From a virus, in the IMG/VR virus record IMGVR_UViG_3300033146_001722, positions 1 to 26,422 of that record: a stretch of 26,422 nucleotides of DNA; one strand, 5' to 3'. Made by a program: the position numbers and the translations under genes. Numbering within the stretch: the first letter of the stretch is position 1; each line of letters begins with the position of its first letter. This document shows, piece after piece, positions 4,429 to 26,422 of the stretch. The notes beneath the pieces were generated by a model. That model did not search any database and was not told the DNA's origin. It saw only the letters and a list, made by a program, of their open reading frames with translations.

Positions 4429-5246
4429 TAAAGTGGATAAAAAATCTTTTCAAGAAAAAAGAAAAGGTAAAGAAAAAAAGAAAAGTAAAGTTGGATACGA
4501 AAGAACAAGCTAGGAGAAAATATGTTAAAAAGAAACTTAAAGAAAATCCTGATTGGAAACCTCGTGTGAAGAAAACACCAGAAGAAGTAATACAAGCAAG
4601 AAAAGATAGATATTGGAAAAATAAAAAACCCAGATTAATCGATAAAAGAAAAACCCTTTCCCACTTAACACCAGAAGAAAAGGTTGCCCGTAAGAAAAAG
4701 ATACAGAGAGATAAGTATGTTGAAAAGAAACTTAAAGAAAATCCTGATTGGAAACCTCGTGTAAAGAAAACACCAGAAGAGCAAAGAATCTATATAAATG
4801 AATATAACCGAAAGATAAGAGAAAAGAAAGGTTGTAAGCCAAGAGTAAAGAAAATCAAAATAGATAAACCTAAAAAGAAAAGGTATCTTAATGATAAAGA
4901 TTTAAGAAAAGAAATTATGATTTCAAAAGAAAATGGAAAGACAACAGAAAAACTTAAATTGATGTTGTTTGAAATGTGTAAAAGAATAAATAGTAGATTT
5001 AATTATTATGATGAAGATATGAGATATGATATTATGATGTCTTCTTATGTTGATGTAATGATTTGGTATCCACAATTTAATCCAAAATACGAAAAATCTT
5101 TTCCTTATATAACTGAACTCATTAAACGATCACACGCTAATCATTTCAAACAACAAGTAACCAAAGGATTAAAAGGATTAGGTGATAACTATGGAGATAT
5201 TAAAAAGACAGGGTTTGTAAGCCAAACTGAAATACACAACTTATAA
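4425..5246 (+). CDS. T4 gp55-like late sigma factor with basic repeat N-terminus
   Basis: A 273-aa protein. Residues 1-153 are extremely Lys/Arg-rich and contain a near-identical 22-residue duplication (33-54 and 98-119) with KKLKENPDWKPRVKKTPEE. Residues 154-245 resemble phage T4 late sigma factor gp55. They start YLNDKDLRKEI (gp55 has YVNNKELLQAI, from memory). A helical segment, RFNYYDEDMRYDIMMSSYVD and then FNPKYEKSFPYITELIKRS follow, matching gp55's RFNF..., DETKYKNPHAYITQ... order. This is the sigma region 2 core that binds RNA polymerase and the -10-like box. No region 4 is visible, as in gp55. The likely role is to redirect host RNA polymerase to late promoters; recurrent TATATATA boxes before structural genes are the candidate targets. 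The basic N-terminal extension is unusual. Confidence 0.7.
   Translation: MIKWIKNLFKKKEKVKKKRKVKLDTKEQARRKYVKKKLKENPDWKPRVKKTPEEVIQARKDRYWKNKKPRLIDKRKTLSHLTPEEKVARKKKIQRDKYVEKKLKENPDWKPRVKKTPEEQRIYINEYNRKIREKKGCKPRVKKIKIDKPKKKRYLNDKDLRKEIMISKENGKTTEKLKLMLFEMCKRINSRFNYYDEDMRYDIMMSSYVDVMIWYPQFNPKYEKSFPYITELIKRSHANHFKQQVTKGLKGLGDNYGDIKKTGFVSQTEIHNL
4521..4781 (+). repeat. 66-bp internal duplication in the sigma-like gene
   Basis: Positions 4521-4586 and 4716-4781 are alike at 63 of 66 bases by my count and lie exactly 195 bp (65 codons) apart, so the reading frame is kept. They encode the YVxKKLKENPDWKPRVKKTPEE unit. The high DNA identity points to recent duplication or ongoing gene conversion. 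Confidence 0.85.
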
Positions 5247-5261
5247 AAAAAAACAAGAAAT

Positions 5262-6266
5262 ATGAAAGAAATAGTAGAAAGTGGAGAAATTGAAAATCGT
5301 TATTATAGTAAATTAGTTTTAGATAATAGTAGTGATTATATAATAGATAATGAATTATATTCTATCTATCGTAAAGGTATAGAAATTATATCAGTTCCCT
5401 TGTGGAACGAACCAAGTAAAAATACTTATGATAAATTTGTAGGTGAAAACTGGAAATATAACTTACCAAGAATATATACTTTATATAAATTGAATGGTTA
5501 TAAAAATTCAAAATCTATTCTACCATTTATGAAATACCAATATAAAATGACAGATGATAAATTTGAAAAATTAAAAACCCAATATAATAGATTCCAAAAG
5601 GTTTTAGAGTTAAGTAATGTAGTTAGTTTTTCTTATAACCCACCTTACAATGTAGAATCAAGGGAAATTGAAGAATTGTTTTGTGATGATGGAAATTACC
5701 ATATAGAAAAACGGATGGTATATTCAACACAAGATAAAATACGATTAAAAAAGAATGGAGAATATAATGAAAGATACAAGAAACTTAAAAAGAAAATCAT
5801 AAGTGCCGCGGTTGTATATAAAGAACAAATTAAAAATTTAGAATTCAATAAAGATGATTTATCAGTTAAGAAAATTAATGATATATTACAGATACTTAAA
5901 AGATATTTTAATGAAAAGTATATCATAAAAGAAACAAGATATATTATCTTAAACAAAGAACGAGGGTGGAAAAGTTTATTCTATACAAATAAAGAATATA
6001 AATTCTTATCTGTAAATTACTATAACCATAAAAAACCCGAAGATAAGAAAAGGATGATTGAAATAGAAAGAGAATATCTTAACAAAGGAATTGGTTTATT
6101 AAAAGAAGAACAAAATGAGAATTTAATAAATTATGGAATAACTTGGCTTCAAGATAAAGTTAAAATAACTAATCAAGGATTATCTGGTGTAACTGGTTTA
6201 TCAAAACCAACTATAAGTAAATATAGGAAAAAAAATTGGAGAGATGATAATGAAAAGTTATTTTAA
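5262..6266 (+). CDS. Hypothetical protein with C-terminal helix-turn-helix
   Basis: A 334-aa soluble, Lys-, Tyr- and Asn-rich protein, not recognised over most of its length. The N-terminal 110 residues are mixed alpha/beta. The middle (about 160-270) is mostly charged helices (YKKLKKKIISAAVVYKEQIKN, KKINDILQILKRYF). Residues about 300-325 form a good HTH: TNQGLSGVTGLSKPTISKYRKK, with the Gly-Leu-Ser turn and Pro-Thr-Ile-Ser recognition helix typical of phage and transposase-type HTHs. It starts 15 nt after the sigma-like gene and is followed at once by a large inverted repeat. It could be a replication initiator or a regulator acting on that palindrome; neither is shown. It is the largest non-structural gene in the window. 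Confidence 0.6.
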   Translation: MKEIVESGEIENRYYSKLVLDNSSDYIIDNELYSIYRKGIEIISVPLWNEPSKNTYDKFVGENWKYNLPRIYTLYKLNGYKNSKSILPFMKYQYKMTDDKFEKLKTQYNRFQKVLELSNVVSFSYNPPYNVESREIEELFCDDGNYHIEKRMVYSTQDKIRLKKNGEYNERYKKLKKKIISAAVVYKEQIKNLEFNKDDLSVKKINDILQILKRYFNEKYIIKETRYIILNKERGWKSLFYTNKEYKFLSVNYYNHKKPEDKKRMIEIEREYLNKGIGLLKEEQNENLINYGITWLQDKVKITNQGLSGVTGLSKPTISKYRKKNWRDDNEKLF

Positions 6267-15753: not shown

Positions 15754-16698
15754 ATGGCAAACAAAAAATATGATTTTGGTTTTAATGTAACTGGTTTAGC
15801 AGAGTATATCGACCAAAGTGGAGATTTAATCGGTGAAATGATTTATAAGGCACAAACTTTACAAATCCCTGGTATTCAGGTGATTGTAGGTAAGAAGCAT
15901 GATTTCAAACTCACTAGAAATGACAATGATGTTTATTTACAAGCAGATAGTTGTGGATGGTCAACATCAGGATCAACTAATTTTGATCAGGTGACTATTC
16001 CAATTAGTCCAGTGAAATTCCAAGAGGAGTTATGTCCAACTGATTTTGACGATAAGTATTTAGGTCAGCAATCAATTGGTTCGAAACCTGAAACATTCCC
16101 TTACGAACAATTTATCGTATCACTTAAAACTGAAAAGATGACTAGTGAAATTGATAGAATTGCTTGGTTAGGAAATACTACAAGTGGAGTTGGTAATTTA
16201 TCACAAGCGGATGGTTGGTTAAGTTTCATTAGTGGTTCAACAGAAACTACTTATGTGGCGGCTGCATCAGGACCATCAACAGTGACAACAATTATGGCAA
16301 AGGTAGAAGCTATGATTGCCGCTTGCGATGAGAGAGTATATACTAAGGAAGACTTAGTAATGTTTATGAGTGTTGCTAATTACAGATTAGTAGTTAATGC
16401 TCAAAAGAAAGAAAACTATGTGAATTATAACATTGGTATTGATGGTAAGACGTTAGAGACTACTATTGATGTTGATGGTGTAAAGATTATGGGACTACAT
16501 GCGTTAAGAGGAACAGATAATTTTATTTTAACTCCTTTATCAAATATGATATTCGCAACAGACTTACTTGACGAAACATCTTATATAGATGCTTGGTTCG
16601 AAAGAAAAGAAAGTCAAGTATTAATCGAAAGTAAATTCAAACTTGGTTTTGGTTTTGAATTCGATTGGATGGTAACACATAACAATCCAGATTTATAA
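15754..16698 (+). CDS. Major capsid protein (HK97-like)
   Basis: A 314-aa protein. No short diagnostic motif exists, but length, position after protease and scaffold, and the alternating beta/helix pattern fit an HK97-fold capsid protein. It has an N-terminal helix (LAEYIDQSGDLIGEMIYKA), an extended arm region with QIPGIQVIVGKKHDF, an Ala-rich spine-like helix region (STVTTIMAKVEAMIAACDERVYTKEDLVMFMS) and a C-terminal beta domain (TDNFILTPLSNMIFATDL...ERKESQVLIESKFKLGFGFEFDW). The FILTPLSNMIFATDL and WFERKESQVLIESKFKLG strands closely resemble capsid P-domain endings. It starts 9 nt after scaffold with an A-rich leader and is followed by a hairpin. Confidence 0.8.
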   Translation: MANKKYDFGFNVTGLAEYIDQSGDLIGEMIYKAQTLQIPGIQVIVGKKHDFKLTRNDNDVYLQADSCGWSTSGSTNFDQVTIPISPVKFQEELCPTDFDDKYLGQQSIGSKPETFPYEQFIVSLKTEKMTSEIDRIAWLGNTTSGVGNLSQADGWLSFISGSTETTYVAAASGPSTVTTIMAKVEAMIAACDERVYTKEDLVMFMSVANYRLVVNAQKKENYVNYNIGIDGKTLETTIDVDGVKIMGLHALRGTDNFILTPLSNMIFATDLLDETSYIDAWFERKESQVLIESKFKLGFGFEFDWMVTHNNPDL

Positions 16699-16764: not shown

Positions 16765-17286
16765 ATGGGATGCATAAGCAATCAAGGATACACAAAAGGA
16801 TGTGATAGTTCTTATGGAGGTATTAAAAAAGTAGGCATTTTTGAGAAAGCAGGATTGGACCTTGATAATATGACTGTGGTTGATGGAGATATAACAGCAT
16901 TATCTGTTAATGCCGGATACACAGGATACACATATGATTTCTTAAAGGATAATTCGAACTGGACTGAACCAATTGTAGGTGATGGAATAGTTGCGACTGT
17001 CCATTGGACACCTCAAGTGAATTTAATTTTCAGGAGAATGAGTGTTACTTTAAGAAATGAAATAATGGAATTATCAAAAGGGGATTTAGTTATTCTCATT
17101 AAAGATAGAAACGATATAACTTGGGTTATTGGAACGGATATGGGTATGCAGTTAGCTGCATCAGCCGGTAGTCAATCAGGAACTCTGTTAGAAGAATTAA
17201 ATGGTGAAACCTTGTTATTCACAGGGACAGAATCATACAAAGCATACACAACAGCAATAGGAGATACACTTATTACTGATTGGTAA
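16765..17286 (+). CDS. Probable tail tube / major tail protein
   Basis: A 173-aa protein in the preferred reading. An upstream ATG at 16726 lies inside a hairpin and would add 13 residues of low quality, while ATG 16765 has the expected A-rich leader. It starts MGCISNQGYTKGCDSSYGGIKKV, and the rest is beta-rich: TALSVNAGYTGYTYDF, VATVHWTPQVNLIFRRMSVTLRNEI, LVILIKDRNDITWVIG, GMQLAASAGSQSG and a final ETLLFTGTESYKAY. The I-K-K-V strand after a Gly pair, the MELSKGDLVILIKDRN element and the late TLLFTGTE strand resemble tail tube proteins of Bacteroidota siphoviruses. It follows the capsid gene and ends before a double terminator. Alternative: a head decoration protein. Confidence 0.55.
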   Translation: MGCISNQGYTKGCDSSYGGIKKVGIFEKAGLDLDNMTVVDGDITALSVNAGYTGYTYDFLKDNSNWTEPIVGDGIVATVHWTPQVNLIFRRMSVTLRNEIMELSKGDLVILIKDRNDITWVIGTDMGMQLAASAGSQSGTLLEELNGETLLFTGTESYKAYTTAIGDTLITDW

Positions 17287-17290
17287 AAAC

Positions 17291-17320
17291 ATTACCTTTG
17301 TGGTAATTTTTTATTTTTTT
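17291..17320 (+). terminator. Rho-independent terminator 1 after the tail tube gene
   Basis: ATTACC (17291-17296) pairs with GGTAAT (17302-17307) around a 5-nt loop. It is followed by T-rich sequence to 17320, broken by one A at 17313. It lies just after the stop at 17284-17286. Confidence 0.75.
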
Positions 17321-17327
17321 CATATTG

Positions 17328-17360
17328 AAAAGGGGTTTATTGAGTTAAACCCCTTTTTTT
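17328..17360 (+). terminator. Rho-independent terminator 2 (12-bp stem)
   Basis: AAAAGGGGTTTA (17328-17339) pairs perfectly with TAAACCCCTTTT (17346-17357) around a 6-nt loop, with T residues to 17360. With terminator 1 directly upstream, this should end the head transcript almost completely, so the next gene (17447) needs its own promoter, which the element at 17409 could supply. Confidence 0.9.
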
Positions 17361-17408: not shown

Positions 17409-17428
17409 AAATTATATATATAGATAAG
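17409..17428 (+). promoter_or_regulatory. Putative late promoter element, copy 4
   Basis: AAATTATATATATAGATAAG, identical over 20 bases to copy 1 at 147-166. It lies between a double terminator and the propeller gene, 18 nt before its ATG at 17447. This is the strongest positional case for a promoter, since no upstream transcript should cross the terminators. Confidence 0.6.
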
Positions 17429-17446: not shown

Positions 17447-18673
17447 ATGAGTATAAGAATTTTTTATAGTGGTTCAACAGATTTTCATTTATTCATAGAT
17501 AAAGATGGGTTGGTAGAAAATGATATTTACAAATTTGAATTGGTTGGTGATACAACAGAATATACTTTTCTAAAAGATAGTAGTAGATATGTTGATACAT
17601 ATTCTACTTTTACAATATCTACTTTATCAACAGGGGGAATAGATTGGGTTGAAACAAGAGAAGATGAAAGATATAATAATGTAGTCTTATCATCAACAGG
17701 TCAGTATCAAACAACTTCAATTAGAGGTGGTTATGTAATCATATCAAGTGATTATGGTTTAACTTGGAAAGATGTAGGGACAGAACAAATGTGGCACAAT
17801 GTAGATATGACTGATAGTGCTTCAATACAAGTTGCTGTTGGTTGGGAAGGTGATATTTATATGTCTACAAATTATGGTGAAGATTGGGTTGGTTTAACAG
17901 GTGTAGATAGGAATTATACCAATGTTGCCATATCAGGTTTAGATAGGGAGATAGGTGTTGATATGTATATTCTTGCTTGTGATAGTGAGGGATTTGTATA
18001 TCGAAGCACTGATGGTGGTTATTCATTTGATCCAATTTTAACCGAACAATGGTGGAAAAGTGTAAGTATATCTACAACAGGACAATATCAAATTGCTCTT
18101 GCACTTGGGGAACATATCTATACGTCAAATACTTATGGAGAAACTTGGAACAGATGGGATATAGATGGATATTGGTTCGCATCAAGTATTTCATCAACAG
18201 GACAATATCAAGTAATAGGAGAGTGGGATGGTATATTAAAAGTTTCCAATGACTATGGAGAAACTTGGACAGATATTAATATAACACAACGATGGAATAA
18301 TATATCTATGAGTGAAGATGGGAAATATATGTATGCGACTTCGTATGGTATAAACCCAGGTCATTATATTTATTATTCTAATGATTATGGAGTTACTTGG
18401 ATTGCAGATACTTTACAACACAATTGGCATGGTATAGGTTGTTCGGGTGATGGTTTAATTTTAACATCTACCAGTTGGGAAGGACCTTTATATACATCAA
18501 CGAGAGATGTGATTAATATAAATGAAGGTTGGTATAAATATAACTTATATAAAGAAGATGAATTATTAAAAACTGGTCAATGTTACGTCTTTGATGATGA
18601 AGATAATGTTGAAAATTCACCAACAGATACATCTTACGGTGATACAAAAACGACTTATGTATATAAAAAATAA
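17447..18673 (+). CDS. Asp-box beta-propeller structural protein (probable carbohydrate binder)
   Basis: A 408-aa protein in the preferred reading (ATG 17447, behind the promoter element; an open frame from 17300 runs back through the terminators and is not credible). Residues 1-65 and 356-408 look like two halves of one beta-sandwich domain. The middle holds six Asp-box motifs (S-x-D-x-G-x-x-W type) starting near residues 100, 140, 187, 227, 267 and 311, for example SSDYGLTW, SNDYGETW and SNDYGVTW, plus a seventh degenerate repeat. That implies a six- or seven-bladed sialidase/Vps10-like propeller inserted into a host domain. Likely role: glycan binding on the capsid or tail. Sialidase activity is doubtful, since no Arg triad is apparent. 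Confidence 0.75.
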   Translation: MSIRIFYSGSTDFHLFIDKDGLVENDIYKFELVGDTTEYTFLKDSSRYVDTYSTFTISTLSTGGIDWVETREDERYNNVVLSSTGQYQTTSIRGGYVIISSDYGLTWKDVGTEQMWHNVDMTDSASIQVAVGWEGDIYMSTNYGEDWVGLTGVDRNYTNVAISGLDREIGVDMYILACDSEGFVYRSTDGGYSFDPILTEQWWKSVSISTTGQYQIALALGEHIYTSNTYGETWNRWDIDGYWFASSISSTGQYQVIGEWDGILKVSNDYGETWTDINITQRWNNISMSEDGKYMYATSYGINPGHYIYYSNDYGVTWIADTLQHNWHGIGCSGDGLILTSTSWEGPLYTSTRDVININEGWYKYNLYKEDELLKTGQCYVFDDEDNVENSPTDTSYGDTKTTYVYKK

Positions 18674-18682
18674 CGAAATGAA

Positions 18683-20281
18683 ATGGAATTAAAAACAGAA
18701 AAAAATGAAGGTAGATTTATGTTTTCAGCACTATCTTATCAAAATGACATCGTTTTACCATCGTTTAATGAGCAGAATAACTTATCTTGGGTTAAATATG
18801 GTGATGATAATAAATTTCCAGATGAATTACTAACTTTATTTAATAAATCTGGGATACACAATGCTATTATAGAGAGTAAAACTCGTATGATGGTGGGAGA
18901 TGGTATAAAACAAGTTGAAGATGTTGGGTTTAGTGAAAAAACAGAAAAATTTATCAATAAACCAAATCAATTTGAAACAATGGATCAGATATATAAGAAA
19001 TGTTCTATGGACTTTGAGTTATATGGACTTGCTTATATTGAGGTTTTATGGGGGAAAGGACACAAACAGATTGCCGAAATCCACCATATAGATGCCACAA
19101 AAATCCGTTGGGGTAAAGTAAATGATAAAAACAGAATAGATACTTACTGGTATAGTCGTGATTGGAGTAATTATAGAAAAGAACAATATATTCCAGTTGG
19201 GATACCAGTTTTAAATGATAAGAATAAGGAATCAAGACAGATTATTCCAATTGTAAGATATACTCCGGGGTTAGATTACTATTCCTACCCAGATTACATT
19301 GCATCTACTAAATGGATTCATATTGATACAGAGATTGCAAATTTCCACTTTAATAATCTTAAAAATGGTATGACCCCGAGTATATTTTTTGGTTTCCCAG
19401 TTGGGGAAACTACAAATGAGGAAAGAAAACAGATTGAGGAAAAGATTGATGATAAATACAAAGGAACGAATAACGCAAGTAAGTTTATTCTTGCCTTTTA
19501 TGATGCAGAGGGAGAATCAAAACCAGAGGTTACTATTCTTGAAACATCGAACGCTGATAAACTCTATGACTTATTAAATAAAACAACACTACAACAAATA
19601 TTAATAGGGCACAAGGTAGTAAATGAAAATTTAGTAGGTATATCAACCCCAGGGAAATTGGGTTCGTCTAGTGATATATTACAGAATTATGAATTATATT
19701 TTAATACAGTGGTTAAACCAGAACAACAAAAGGTTTTAGAAACGTTTAAGAAAATAATGTTGATAAATGGTATGAACGATATTTATATTCTTGATAATAA
19801 ACCATTGAGTATGGAATTTAGTGAAAATATAATGAAAGAAATACTAACCCGTGATGAGATGAGAGAAATTGTTGGTTATGAACCATTGGAAGTTGAAGAT
19901 GAAGTCATTGAAGATGATATAATTGATGAAGATGATATAATTGAAAACGATGAAAGTATAATTGTTAAACAGGTTGAATTTAAAAAGGATTTTGCTGGTG
20001 TAAGGACAATTGATAAAGGAAATGCTGCGGTGAATATACCAAAGGCGGATTTGAATTCAAAATATATGTGGAGGATTACTACTGGTGAAAAGGACAATTG
20101 TCCAGTTTGCTTAGAAAGAAATGGTAAGACAAGGACTTTGGGTAATTGGCTTCATATAGGAATTCCAGGGATCCCAACAGGTATGAATTTTGGTGATGAT
20201 AGAATTACAAATTTCGCAACTGCTCCCTATTCGAGTTTTTGTGAAGATGCATGTAATTGCAAACTACAAAAAATTGGATAA
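18683..20281 (+). CDS. Portal protein with C-terminal MuF-like Cys-rich tail
   Basis: A 532-aa protein. The first 410 residues follow the phage portal pattern: NLSWVKYGDDNKFPDELL, a helix with NAIIESKTRMMVGDGI, CSMDFELYGLAYIEVLW, the IHHIDATKIRWGK strand, and the late helix FNTVVKPEQQKVLETFKKIM. An acidic linker follows (EVEDEVIEDDIIDEDDI). The last 75 residues resemble the end of Mu gpF-type minor head proteins: WRITTGEKDNCPVCLERNGKTRT, GIPGIPTG and FCEDACNCKL, with five cysteines arranged CxxC, then CxxxCxC, likely binding zinc. So portal and a MuF remnant are fused. The portal forms the dodecameric ring through which DNA enters. Its position after capsid and tail tube genes is unusual. Confidence 0.85.
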   Translation: MELKTEKNEGRFMFSALSYQNDIVLPSFNEQNNLSWVKYGDDNKFPDELLTLFNKSGIHNAIIESKTRMMVGDGIKQVEDVGFSEKTEKFINKPNQFETMDQIYKKCSMDFELYGLAYIEVLWGKGHKQIAEIHHIDATKIRWGKVNDKNRIDTYWYSRDWSNYRKEQYIPVGIPVLNDKNKESRQIIPIVRYTPGLDYYSYPDYIASTKWIHIDTEIANFHFNNLKNGMTPSIFFGFPVGETTNEERKQIEEKIDDKYKGTNNASKFILAFYDAEGESKPEVTILETSNADKLYDLLNKTTLQQILIGHKVVNENLVGISTPGKLGSSSDILQNYELYFNTVVKPEQQKVLETFKKIMLINGMNDIYILDNKPLSMEFSENIMKEILTRDEMREIVGYEPLEVEDEVIEDDIIDEDDIIENDESIIVKQVEFKKDFAGVRTIDKGNAAVNIPKADLNSKYMWRITTGEKDNCPVCLERNGKTRTLGNWLHIGIPGIPTGMNFGDDRITNFATAPYSSFCEDACNCKLQKIG

Positions 20282-21133: not shown

Positions 21134-21150
21134 AAATTATATATATAAAT
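21134..21150 (+). promoter_or_regulatory. Putative late promoter element, copy 5
   Basis: AAATTATATATATAAAT ends directly at the ATG (21151) of the homing endonuclease. Its first 14 bases match copies 1, 2 and 4. It may originally have served the neck gene downstream, with the endonuclease gene inserted between promoter and neck gene. If used, the transcript start would fall at or inside the endonuclease start codon. Confidence 0.45.
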
Positions 21151-21645
21151 ATGAAATGGAAAGATATAAATGGTTATGAAGGTGAATACCATATAAGTAA
21201 TTGTGGTAAAGTAAAAAGTTTGAAATTCAGTAAGGAAAGGATATTAAAACCAAATAAAGATAAAGTTGGTTATTATAATGTAAATTTATCAAAGGAAGGA
21301 AAAAAGAAAATCTTTAAGATACATTTATTAGTGTGGGATCATTTTGGTTCAGGAAAAAGAAATGGTATGAAATTACAGGTAGATCATATTAAAGAAAAAG
21401 ATAAATCAAATAATCATATAGATAATTTACAATTACTTAATCCAAGATATAATATCATTAAGTCAAAAGATAAAACTAAAACATCTTCAAAATATCTTGG
21501 TGTGAGTTGGTCTAAACGGGATAATAAATGGTTATCGTCCATTTATATAAATGGAAAATACAAATATCTTGGTTATTTTGATAATGAGTATGATGCTCAT
21601 TTAGCCTATAAAAAAGAATTAGAAACCTATGTTGAAAAGTTATAA
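21151..21645 (+). CDS. NUMOD4-HNH-AP2 homing endonuclease
   Basis: A 164-aa protein. Residues 1-45 form NUMOD4 (KWKDINGYEGEYHISNCGKVKS). The HNH core runs about 55-102, with His58 in KIHLLVWDHF, Asp78-His79 in VDHI, Asn92 in HIDNLQLL and Asn101. An AP2-like DNA-binding domain follows (about 114-158: SKYLGVSWSKRDNKWLSSIYINGKYKYLGYFDNEYDAHLAY). All parts are intact, so it should be active: a free-standing nuclease that cuts alleles lacking the gene and promotes its own spread. It separates the membrane protein gene from the tail-terminator-like gene. A relic of a relative lies at 11276-11332. Confidence 0.9.
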   Translation: MKWKDINGYEGEYHISNCGKVKSLKFSKERILKPNKDKVGYYNVNLSKEGKKKIFKIHLLVWDHFGSGKRNGMKLQVDHIKEKDKSNNHIDNLQLLNPRYNIIKSKDKTKTSSKYLGVSWSKRDNKWLSSIYINGKYKYLGYFDNEYDAHLAYKKELETYVEKL

Positions 21646-26057: not shown

Positions 26058-26422
26058 ATGAGTGATTCAAGGATCAGAAATTTAACATTTGAACCAACAC
26101 CAACAGGAACAACTTTATTCGTAATAGATAAATCTACTTATAGTAATGCAAGGTATTCAACATTAGATAATATAAAAGATTATATACTTGATGGTTTATC
26201 AGTAGGAGATACTTATACAACTGGTTTAACATTTGATACAGGAACAGGAATTTTAACAGGACATAGAAACGATGGAAATGTTTATTTTGTTGATTTAGAT
26301 GGGAGATACTTAACTGGAACGACTGGTGGTGGAACAGATGGTAGTTCAGGAACTTCAGGAACAGATGGAATTGGAACAGATGGTAGTTCAGGAACAAGTG
26401 GTATGGATGGGTTTGGTAGTTC
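26058..26422 (+). CDS. Collagen-like fiber protein, N-terminal part (3' end outside window)
   Basis: An open frame of 121 codons runs to the window end. The head (residues 1-90) starts MSDSRIRNLTFEPTPTGTTLFVIDKSTYSNARYSTLDNIKDYIL, a pattern often found at the N-terminus of tail fibers in this type of phage. It attaches the fiber and is followed by a beta segment (GNVYFVDLDGRYLTGTT). From about residue 92 collagen-like GTDG, GSSG and GTSG units begin. Bases 26331-26368 are identical to 454-491. The gene may continue at base 2 of the window if the molecule is circular. Likely a receptor-binding fiber. It lies behind a putative late promoter. Confidence 0.75.
   Translation, partial: MSDSRIRNLTFEPTPTGTTLFVIDKSTYSNARYSTLDNIKDYILDGLSVGDTYTTGLTFDTGTGILTGHRNDGNVYFVDLDGRYLTGTTGGGTDGSSGTSGTDGIGTDGSSGTSGMDGFGS

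Follow-up and report, generated by a model that had tools for sequence, protein, structure and literature searches.

The window, as we call the whole analysed stretch of 26,422 nucleotides (virus record IMGVR_UViG_3300033146_001722), carries at positions 17447 to 18673 of the plus strand a gene for a 408-amino-acid protein that is predicted to be a small beta-sandwich with an inserted beta-propeller. The genes at the locus follow the order major capsid, tail-tube-like, sandwich gene and portal. The upstream neighbor (16765 to 17286, plus strand) falls into phrog_19091, a family of unknown function, and its name of tail-tube-like protein was taken from an initial annotation of this DNA. The portal gene (18683 to 20281, plus strand) begins with an ATG at 18683, 9 nt past the stop of the sandwich gene at 18673, and the sandwich gene is the head of a run that continues into portal. 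The protein begins with MSIR. A longer frame from a GTG at 17300, which crosses the hairpins upstream of the gene, is not supported, because the proteins of the relatives start from the corresponding ATG and open with MS[ILF]R.

Relatives (loci numbered with the prefix L) were found in viral contigs by means of the portal protein. The initial annotation had placed the gene between tail tube and portal, and the same order was observed in the window and in these relatives. The best isolate match by portal was a Nonlabens phage; this match and the gene content of the window (DUF6712) suggest that the hosts of the phage family are probably Bacteroidota. Contig scans found no relatives in genome contigs, and phage isolates gave no match to the whole protein, to a propeller encoded at L103 or to the short homologues of L009, L065 and L093. 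The Nonlabens phage P12024S has a 125-amino-acid ORF before portal, which by eye is unlike the short sandwich family described below.

The major capsid protein of the window (15754 to 16698) shared 56% identity with that of L059 and only 42% with that of L002, although the portal protein shared 75% identity with L002 and 60% with L059; an exchange of the capsid gene is probable. A homing-endonuclease-like gene with NUMOD4, HNH and AP2 domains lies at 21151 to 21645 of the window, and L002 has a similar-looking gene directly after portal instead. In L022 (2293 to 3674) and related loci, the short sandwich gene is separated from the tail-tube-like gene by two extra genes, which have no Pfam match and look glycosyltransferase-like by eye. 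The gene after portal in L008 (1459 to 2154) gave a weak match to glycosyltransferase family 11, slightly below the cut-off (E 8.5e-5). Collagen-like GTSGTDGTSG repeats occur in fibre-like genes near both ends of the record (211 to 699 and 26058 to 26422), the former with a sub-threshold match to Pfam Collagen.

Six Asp boxes were found in the protein, at residues 100, 140, 187, 227, 267 and 311 with a spacing of 40 to 47 residues. All lie on the plus strand: SSDYGLTW (17744 to 17767), STNYGEDW (17864 to 17887), STDGGYSF (18005 to 18028), SNTYGETW (18125 to 18148), SNDYGETW (18245 to 18268) and SNDYGVTW (18377 to 18400). Shuffled versions of the protein contained a mean of 0.018 and at most 2 such motifs (20,000 shuffles). 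A repeated S-x-D-x-G-x-T-W motif at blade spacing is the mark of Asp-box/BNR propellers, and AlphaFold2 predicted a seven-bladed propeller in which blade 7 is without an Asp box; the proposal that six Asp boxes form a propeller is supported by motif count and by model. The Pfam matches of the window protein to BNR, BNR_6 and Sortilin-Vps10 were all slightly below the cut-off, and BNR_6 exceeded it in the homologues at L083 and L077. At L103, another phage contig, the same repeat forms a free-standing propeller gene of 296 amino acids (4977 to 5867), which lies directly 3′ of a 959-amino-acid gene, is 33% identical to the window protein over residues 64 to 362 and matches BNR_6 with 63 bits. 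Propellers of this kind therefore circulate beyond the sandwich family.

In the AlphaFold2 model of the window protein (mean pLDDT 78, pTM 0.75), five sandwich strands precede the propeller and two follow it. The N-terminal half of the sandwich (17447 to 17626, plus strand) comprises residues 1 to 60 with strands at 2-6, 10-15, 27-33, 37-44 and 53-58; the C-terminal half (18512 to 18673 including the stop, plus strand) comprises residues 356 to 408 with strands at 361-369 and 372-382. Between them, residues 61 to about 355 (17627 to 18511, plus strand) would form a self-contained folding module in the loop that connects strand 5 of the sandwich to strand 6, and a PDB structure comparison matched exactly this part to seven-bladed propellers (Z 28 to 30), with the flanks excluded. 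A continuous propeller that takes in the flanks, the alternative to an insertion, was not predicted, and the propeller match is confined to residues 61 to 355. Strand 67-71 (17645 to 17659, plus strand) probably closes blade 7, judging from the strand order, and the ends of the insert would then meet. The alignment behind the model was shallow, with 17 rows of which only two were full length with a propeller. When the short proteins were aligned over their full length, their N halves came out in the wrong place; N and C pieces were therefore entered separately, leaving no row that pairs both halves of a short homologue.

Uninterrupted counterparts of the flanks were found in the relatives at the same locus as short proteins of 115 to 140 amino acids: 121 in L002 to L005, 124 in L006, 137 in L053, 115 in L054 and L056, 130 in L059, 140 in L061 and L075, and 126 in L063. 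At L076 (4190 to 4602) the short gene is apparently split into two frames of 45 and 86 amino acids. When residues 1 to 61 and 356 to 408 were joined and aligned with the 121-amino-acid L002 protein, the score was 240, while shuffled sequences reached 51 at most (z 19.3). This z is somewhat generous, given that the cut points were picked by a best-score scan and the shuffles were scored only there; the margin far exceeds the bias from that choice. The short L002 protein was predicted with seven strands (pLDDT 74), the same 5+2 set that flanks the propeller in the window protein. The initial annotation had regarded the flanks as halves of one beta domain and the end of the protein as resembling short structural proteins of related phages, and both ideas were borne out. 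The domain insertion is backed by sequence, synteny and structure prediction; comparison of proteins shows the insertion itself, and its fold is predicted by modelling.

More distant phages also encode short proteins directly before portal, and eight of these (125 to 137 amino acids) were taken for a profile. Near and distant short proteins form one family (hhalign probability 98%, E 2.8e-13). Searches of Pfam and PHROGs with the members tested gave no convincing family match, and PDB structure comparison of the short domain gave matches at Z of at most 7 and no identification. The sandwich gene is a resident, conserved small-protein gene of the head/portal module, and the propeller version is a variable allele of it.

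Upstream of the gene, two terminator-like hairpins were observed on the plus strand, one at 17283 to 17314 that is followed by a T run (-8.2 kcal/mol, z -3.2) and one at 17327 to 17358 (-17.1 kcal/mol, z -4.8). A terminator scanner with its own stem and tail rules did not list either of them. An AT-rich 20-mer, AAATTATATATATAGATAAG, follows at 17409 to 17428 (plus strand) and recurs exactly at 147 to 166, where 0.08 copies were expected, and with two mismatches at 21134 to 21153; it is a candidate phage promoter. The initial annotation had described the gene as isolated by two terminators with its own promoter element. The hairpins and the 20-mer are real, but both hairpins lie upstream and do not enclose the gene, and no terminator-like signal was found between the sandwich gene and portal. 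Read by eye, the short gene of the relatives is also preceded by an AT-rich element and by a hairpin that resembles a terminator. Since relatives with a short gene carry similar signals, these belong to the site and do not mark a moron, an extra gene that relatives lack and that brings its own promoter and terminator. The proposed moron-like gain of a separately expressed unit was therefore abandoned: the sandwich gene is present in the surveyed relatives and runs into portal, and its upstream signals are old at the site.

The propeller is carried by 4 or 5 of about 13 alleles, namely, those of the window (408 amino acids), L007 (414) and L083 (420), the 5′ part at L057 and the 3′ part at L077. 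The last two come from one metagenome, do not overlap and may represent one virus. Carriers are interspersed with noncarriers in the portal tree, which calls for four or more changes, and the grouping of all carriers in one clade was rejected (p-AU 3e-39). Similarity between scaffold halves reflects the phage tree, irrespective of whether a propeller is present: the C half of the window protein is 60% identical to that of the empty L002 compared to 40% for the carrier L007, and L007 is 63% identical to the empty L056. A direct comparison was offered by L056, with a short allele, and L057/L077, with a long one. These phages are 96 to 99% identical over long stretches outside the gene, whereas identity drops sharply to about 55 to 60% inside it, in a stretch that begins near the gene start and stops about 85 nt short of the gene end. 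Because the middle of the scaffold differs as well, the exchange involved whole alleles rather than a clean insert. The gene at L057:996-2990 also differs in the L056/L057 pair (54% identity). Long and short alleles are thus swapped by recombination between close relatives, as seen in this one pair.

A single ancestral insertion followed by many losses, in place of repeated gain or exchange, would account for the use of the same insertion loop in all carriers and for the similar divergence of propeller and scaffold between the window and L007 (38 to 42%). The number of changes in the portal tree and the direct exchange in one pair argue against it, as does the observation that blades 1 and 2 are equidistant (33 to 35%) among the three carriers compared, despite an N scaffold of L057 that is 50% identical to that of L007 and only 28% to that of the window. 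We regard such a history as possible but doubtful.

Modules placed within short virion proteins are known from other phages. Internal carbohydrate-binding insertions in Dit alter adsorption, and recombinant phages adsorbed well to hosts bearing exopolysaccharide (PMC10688798). The closest likeness is to the evolved distal tail proteins (evoDit) of siphophages, among them lactococcal skunaviruses (PMC10688798, PMC6669499), in which a module likewise interrupts a virion protein that is short and conserved, the parts on its N and C sides align to a full uninterrupted homologue, as both termini of the window protein do, and presence varies among close relatives. In the window protein, the inserted module is a propeller with seven blades and Asp boxes, in contrast to the BppA-like carbohydrate-binding module of evoDit, and the protein that receives it is a small sandwich of probable Bacteroidota phages with no sign of being Dit. 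Unlike the gene for Dit, a hexameric tail-tip ring usually encoded after the tape measure, the sandwich gene lies between the tail-tube-like gene and portal. PDB matches to phage baseplate proteins (e.g., 6v8i_AJ, Z 5.3) fall in the uninformative range. A second parallel is the neck passage structure of lactococcal phages, which carries binding modules (PMC6669499). In 936 and TP901-1 phages it combines a ring of BppU N-terminal sandwiches with distal binding modules, again a small sandwich with a putative module displayed; in those phages a coiled coil precedes the module, which is C-terminal, whereas here it lies inside a loop, and the TP901-1 nps gene is near lysis genes, whereas the sandwich gene adjoins portal. 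One BFVD fold match was to the BppU_N protein of Lactococcus phage phi7 (E 2.7e-3). A comparison of the sandwich with two shallow BppU/NPS sets gave an hhalign probability below 1%, and Pfam BppU_N was not matched. The receptor-binding protein of Staphylococcus aureus phage phi11 contains a propeller proposed to hold the host glycan (PMC4901313), which is five-bladed and belongs to a baseplate protein.

From these comparisons we propose that a sandwich protein resident in the head/portal module takes up, in some alleles, a propeller in its strand 5/6 loop. With adjoining insert ends, brought about by strand 67-71 closing the last blade, the sandwich could still fold and assemble, and related phages would swap long and short alleles by recombination in flanking sequence. 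We infer from gene order that the protein is part of the virion; the sandwich would attach it to the particle close to the portal vertex or perhaps at the neck, as gene order and a weak fold similarity suggest. The propeller would face outward and act as an accessory adhesin whose ligand on the host surface would probably be a glycan. By analogy to Dit insertions and neck-protein modules, such display is most likely, and the glycan-binding module on the particle put forward initially is plausible on the same grounds. To the whole account of a resident sandwich, an exchangeable propeller and a particle-borne accessory adhesin we assign a probability of about 0.6. A further idea, that the portal-proximal sandwich is a standing docking site and that allele swaps via conserved ends between nearly identical genomes toggle an off-tip adhesin at the population level, is offered only tentatively.

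The propeller could instead be a structural or protein-protein interaction module that serves as a decoration, stabilizer or virion contact. Propellers widely act as interaction platforms, the tail conduits of some phages contain them, for example the nozzles of T7 and SU10, and no ligand site or catalytic signature was found in the present one. Its presence differs, however, between phages that are 96 to 99% identical around the gene; the propeller is therefore dispensable for assembly and better fits an accessory part in host interaction, which makes a structural role rather unlikely. An enzyme that cuts surface polysaccharides is the least probable of the alternatives. Asp boxes occur in many glycosidases, and sialidases, GH74 xyloglucanases and Vps10/sortilin share both the repeat and the propeller fold; a GH74 xyloglucanase was also the top PDB sequence match (E 7e-4). 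In contrast to these proteins, the window protein has no catalytic motif that we could find and a propeller embedded in a phage sandwich. The seven predicted blades and the absence of a RIP motif speak against a GH33 sialidase, with its six blades and (F/Y)RIP, and the single propeller speaks against a GH74 enzyme, in which the active site lies between two seven-bladed propellers. It is slightly less improbable, and still quite unlikely, that the gene encodes an early or host-directed factor that came to lie in the structural module by chance. The terminator and promoter-like element upstream divide it from the tail-tube-like gene, as would suit such a factor, but its place directly before portal is conserved in near and distant phages, with 9 nt between the two genes in the window.

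Display of an accessory adhesin remains the best-supported reading, and the two versions are swapped in a way that looks as if the particle exchanged a module for host binding. With a short and a long allele at the same locus, the gene shows how a phage can gain a large ready-made binding fold while its structural protein stays intact, by way of a propeller with meeting ends placed in a single loop. L056 and L057/L077 form a natural pair for studying the effect of the accessory adhesin, and the unannotated family just upstream of portal is likely a surface-exposed and variable part of these phages.
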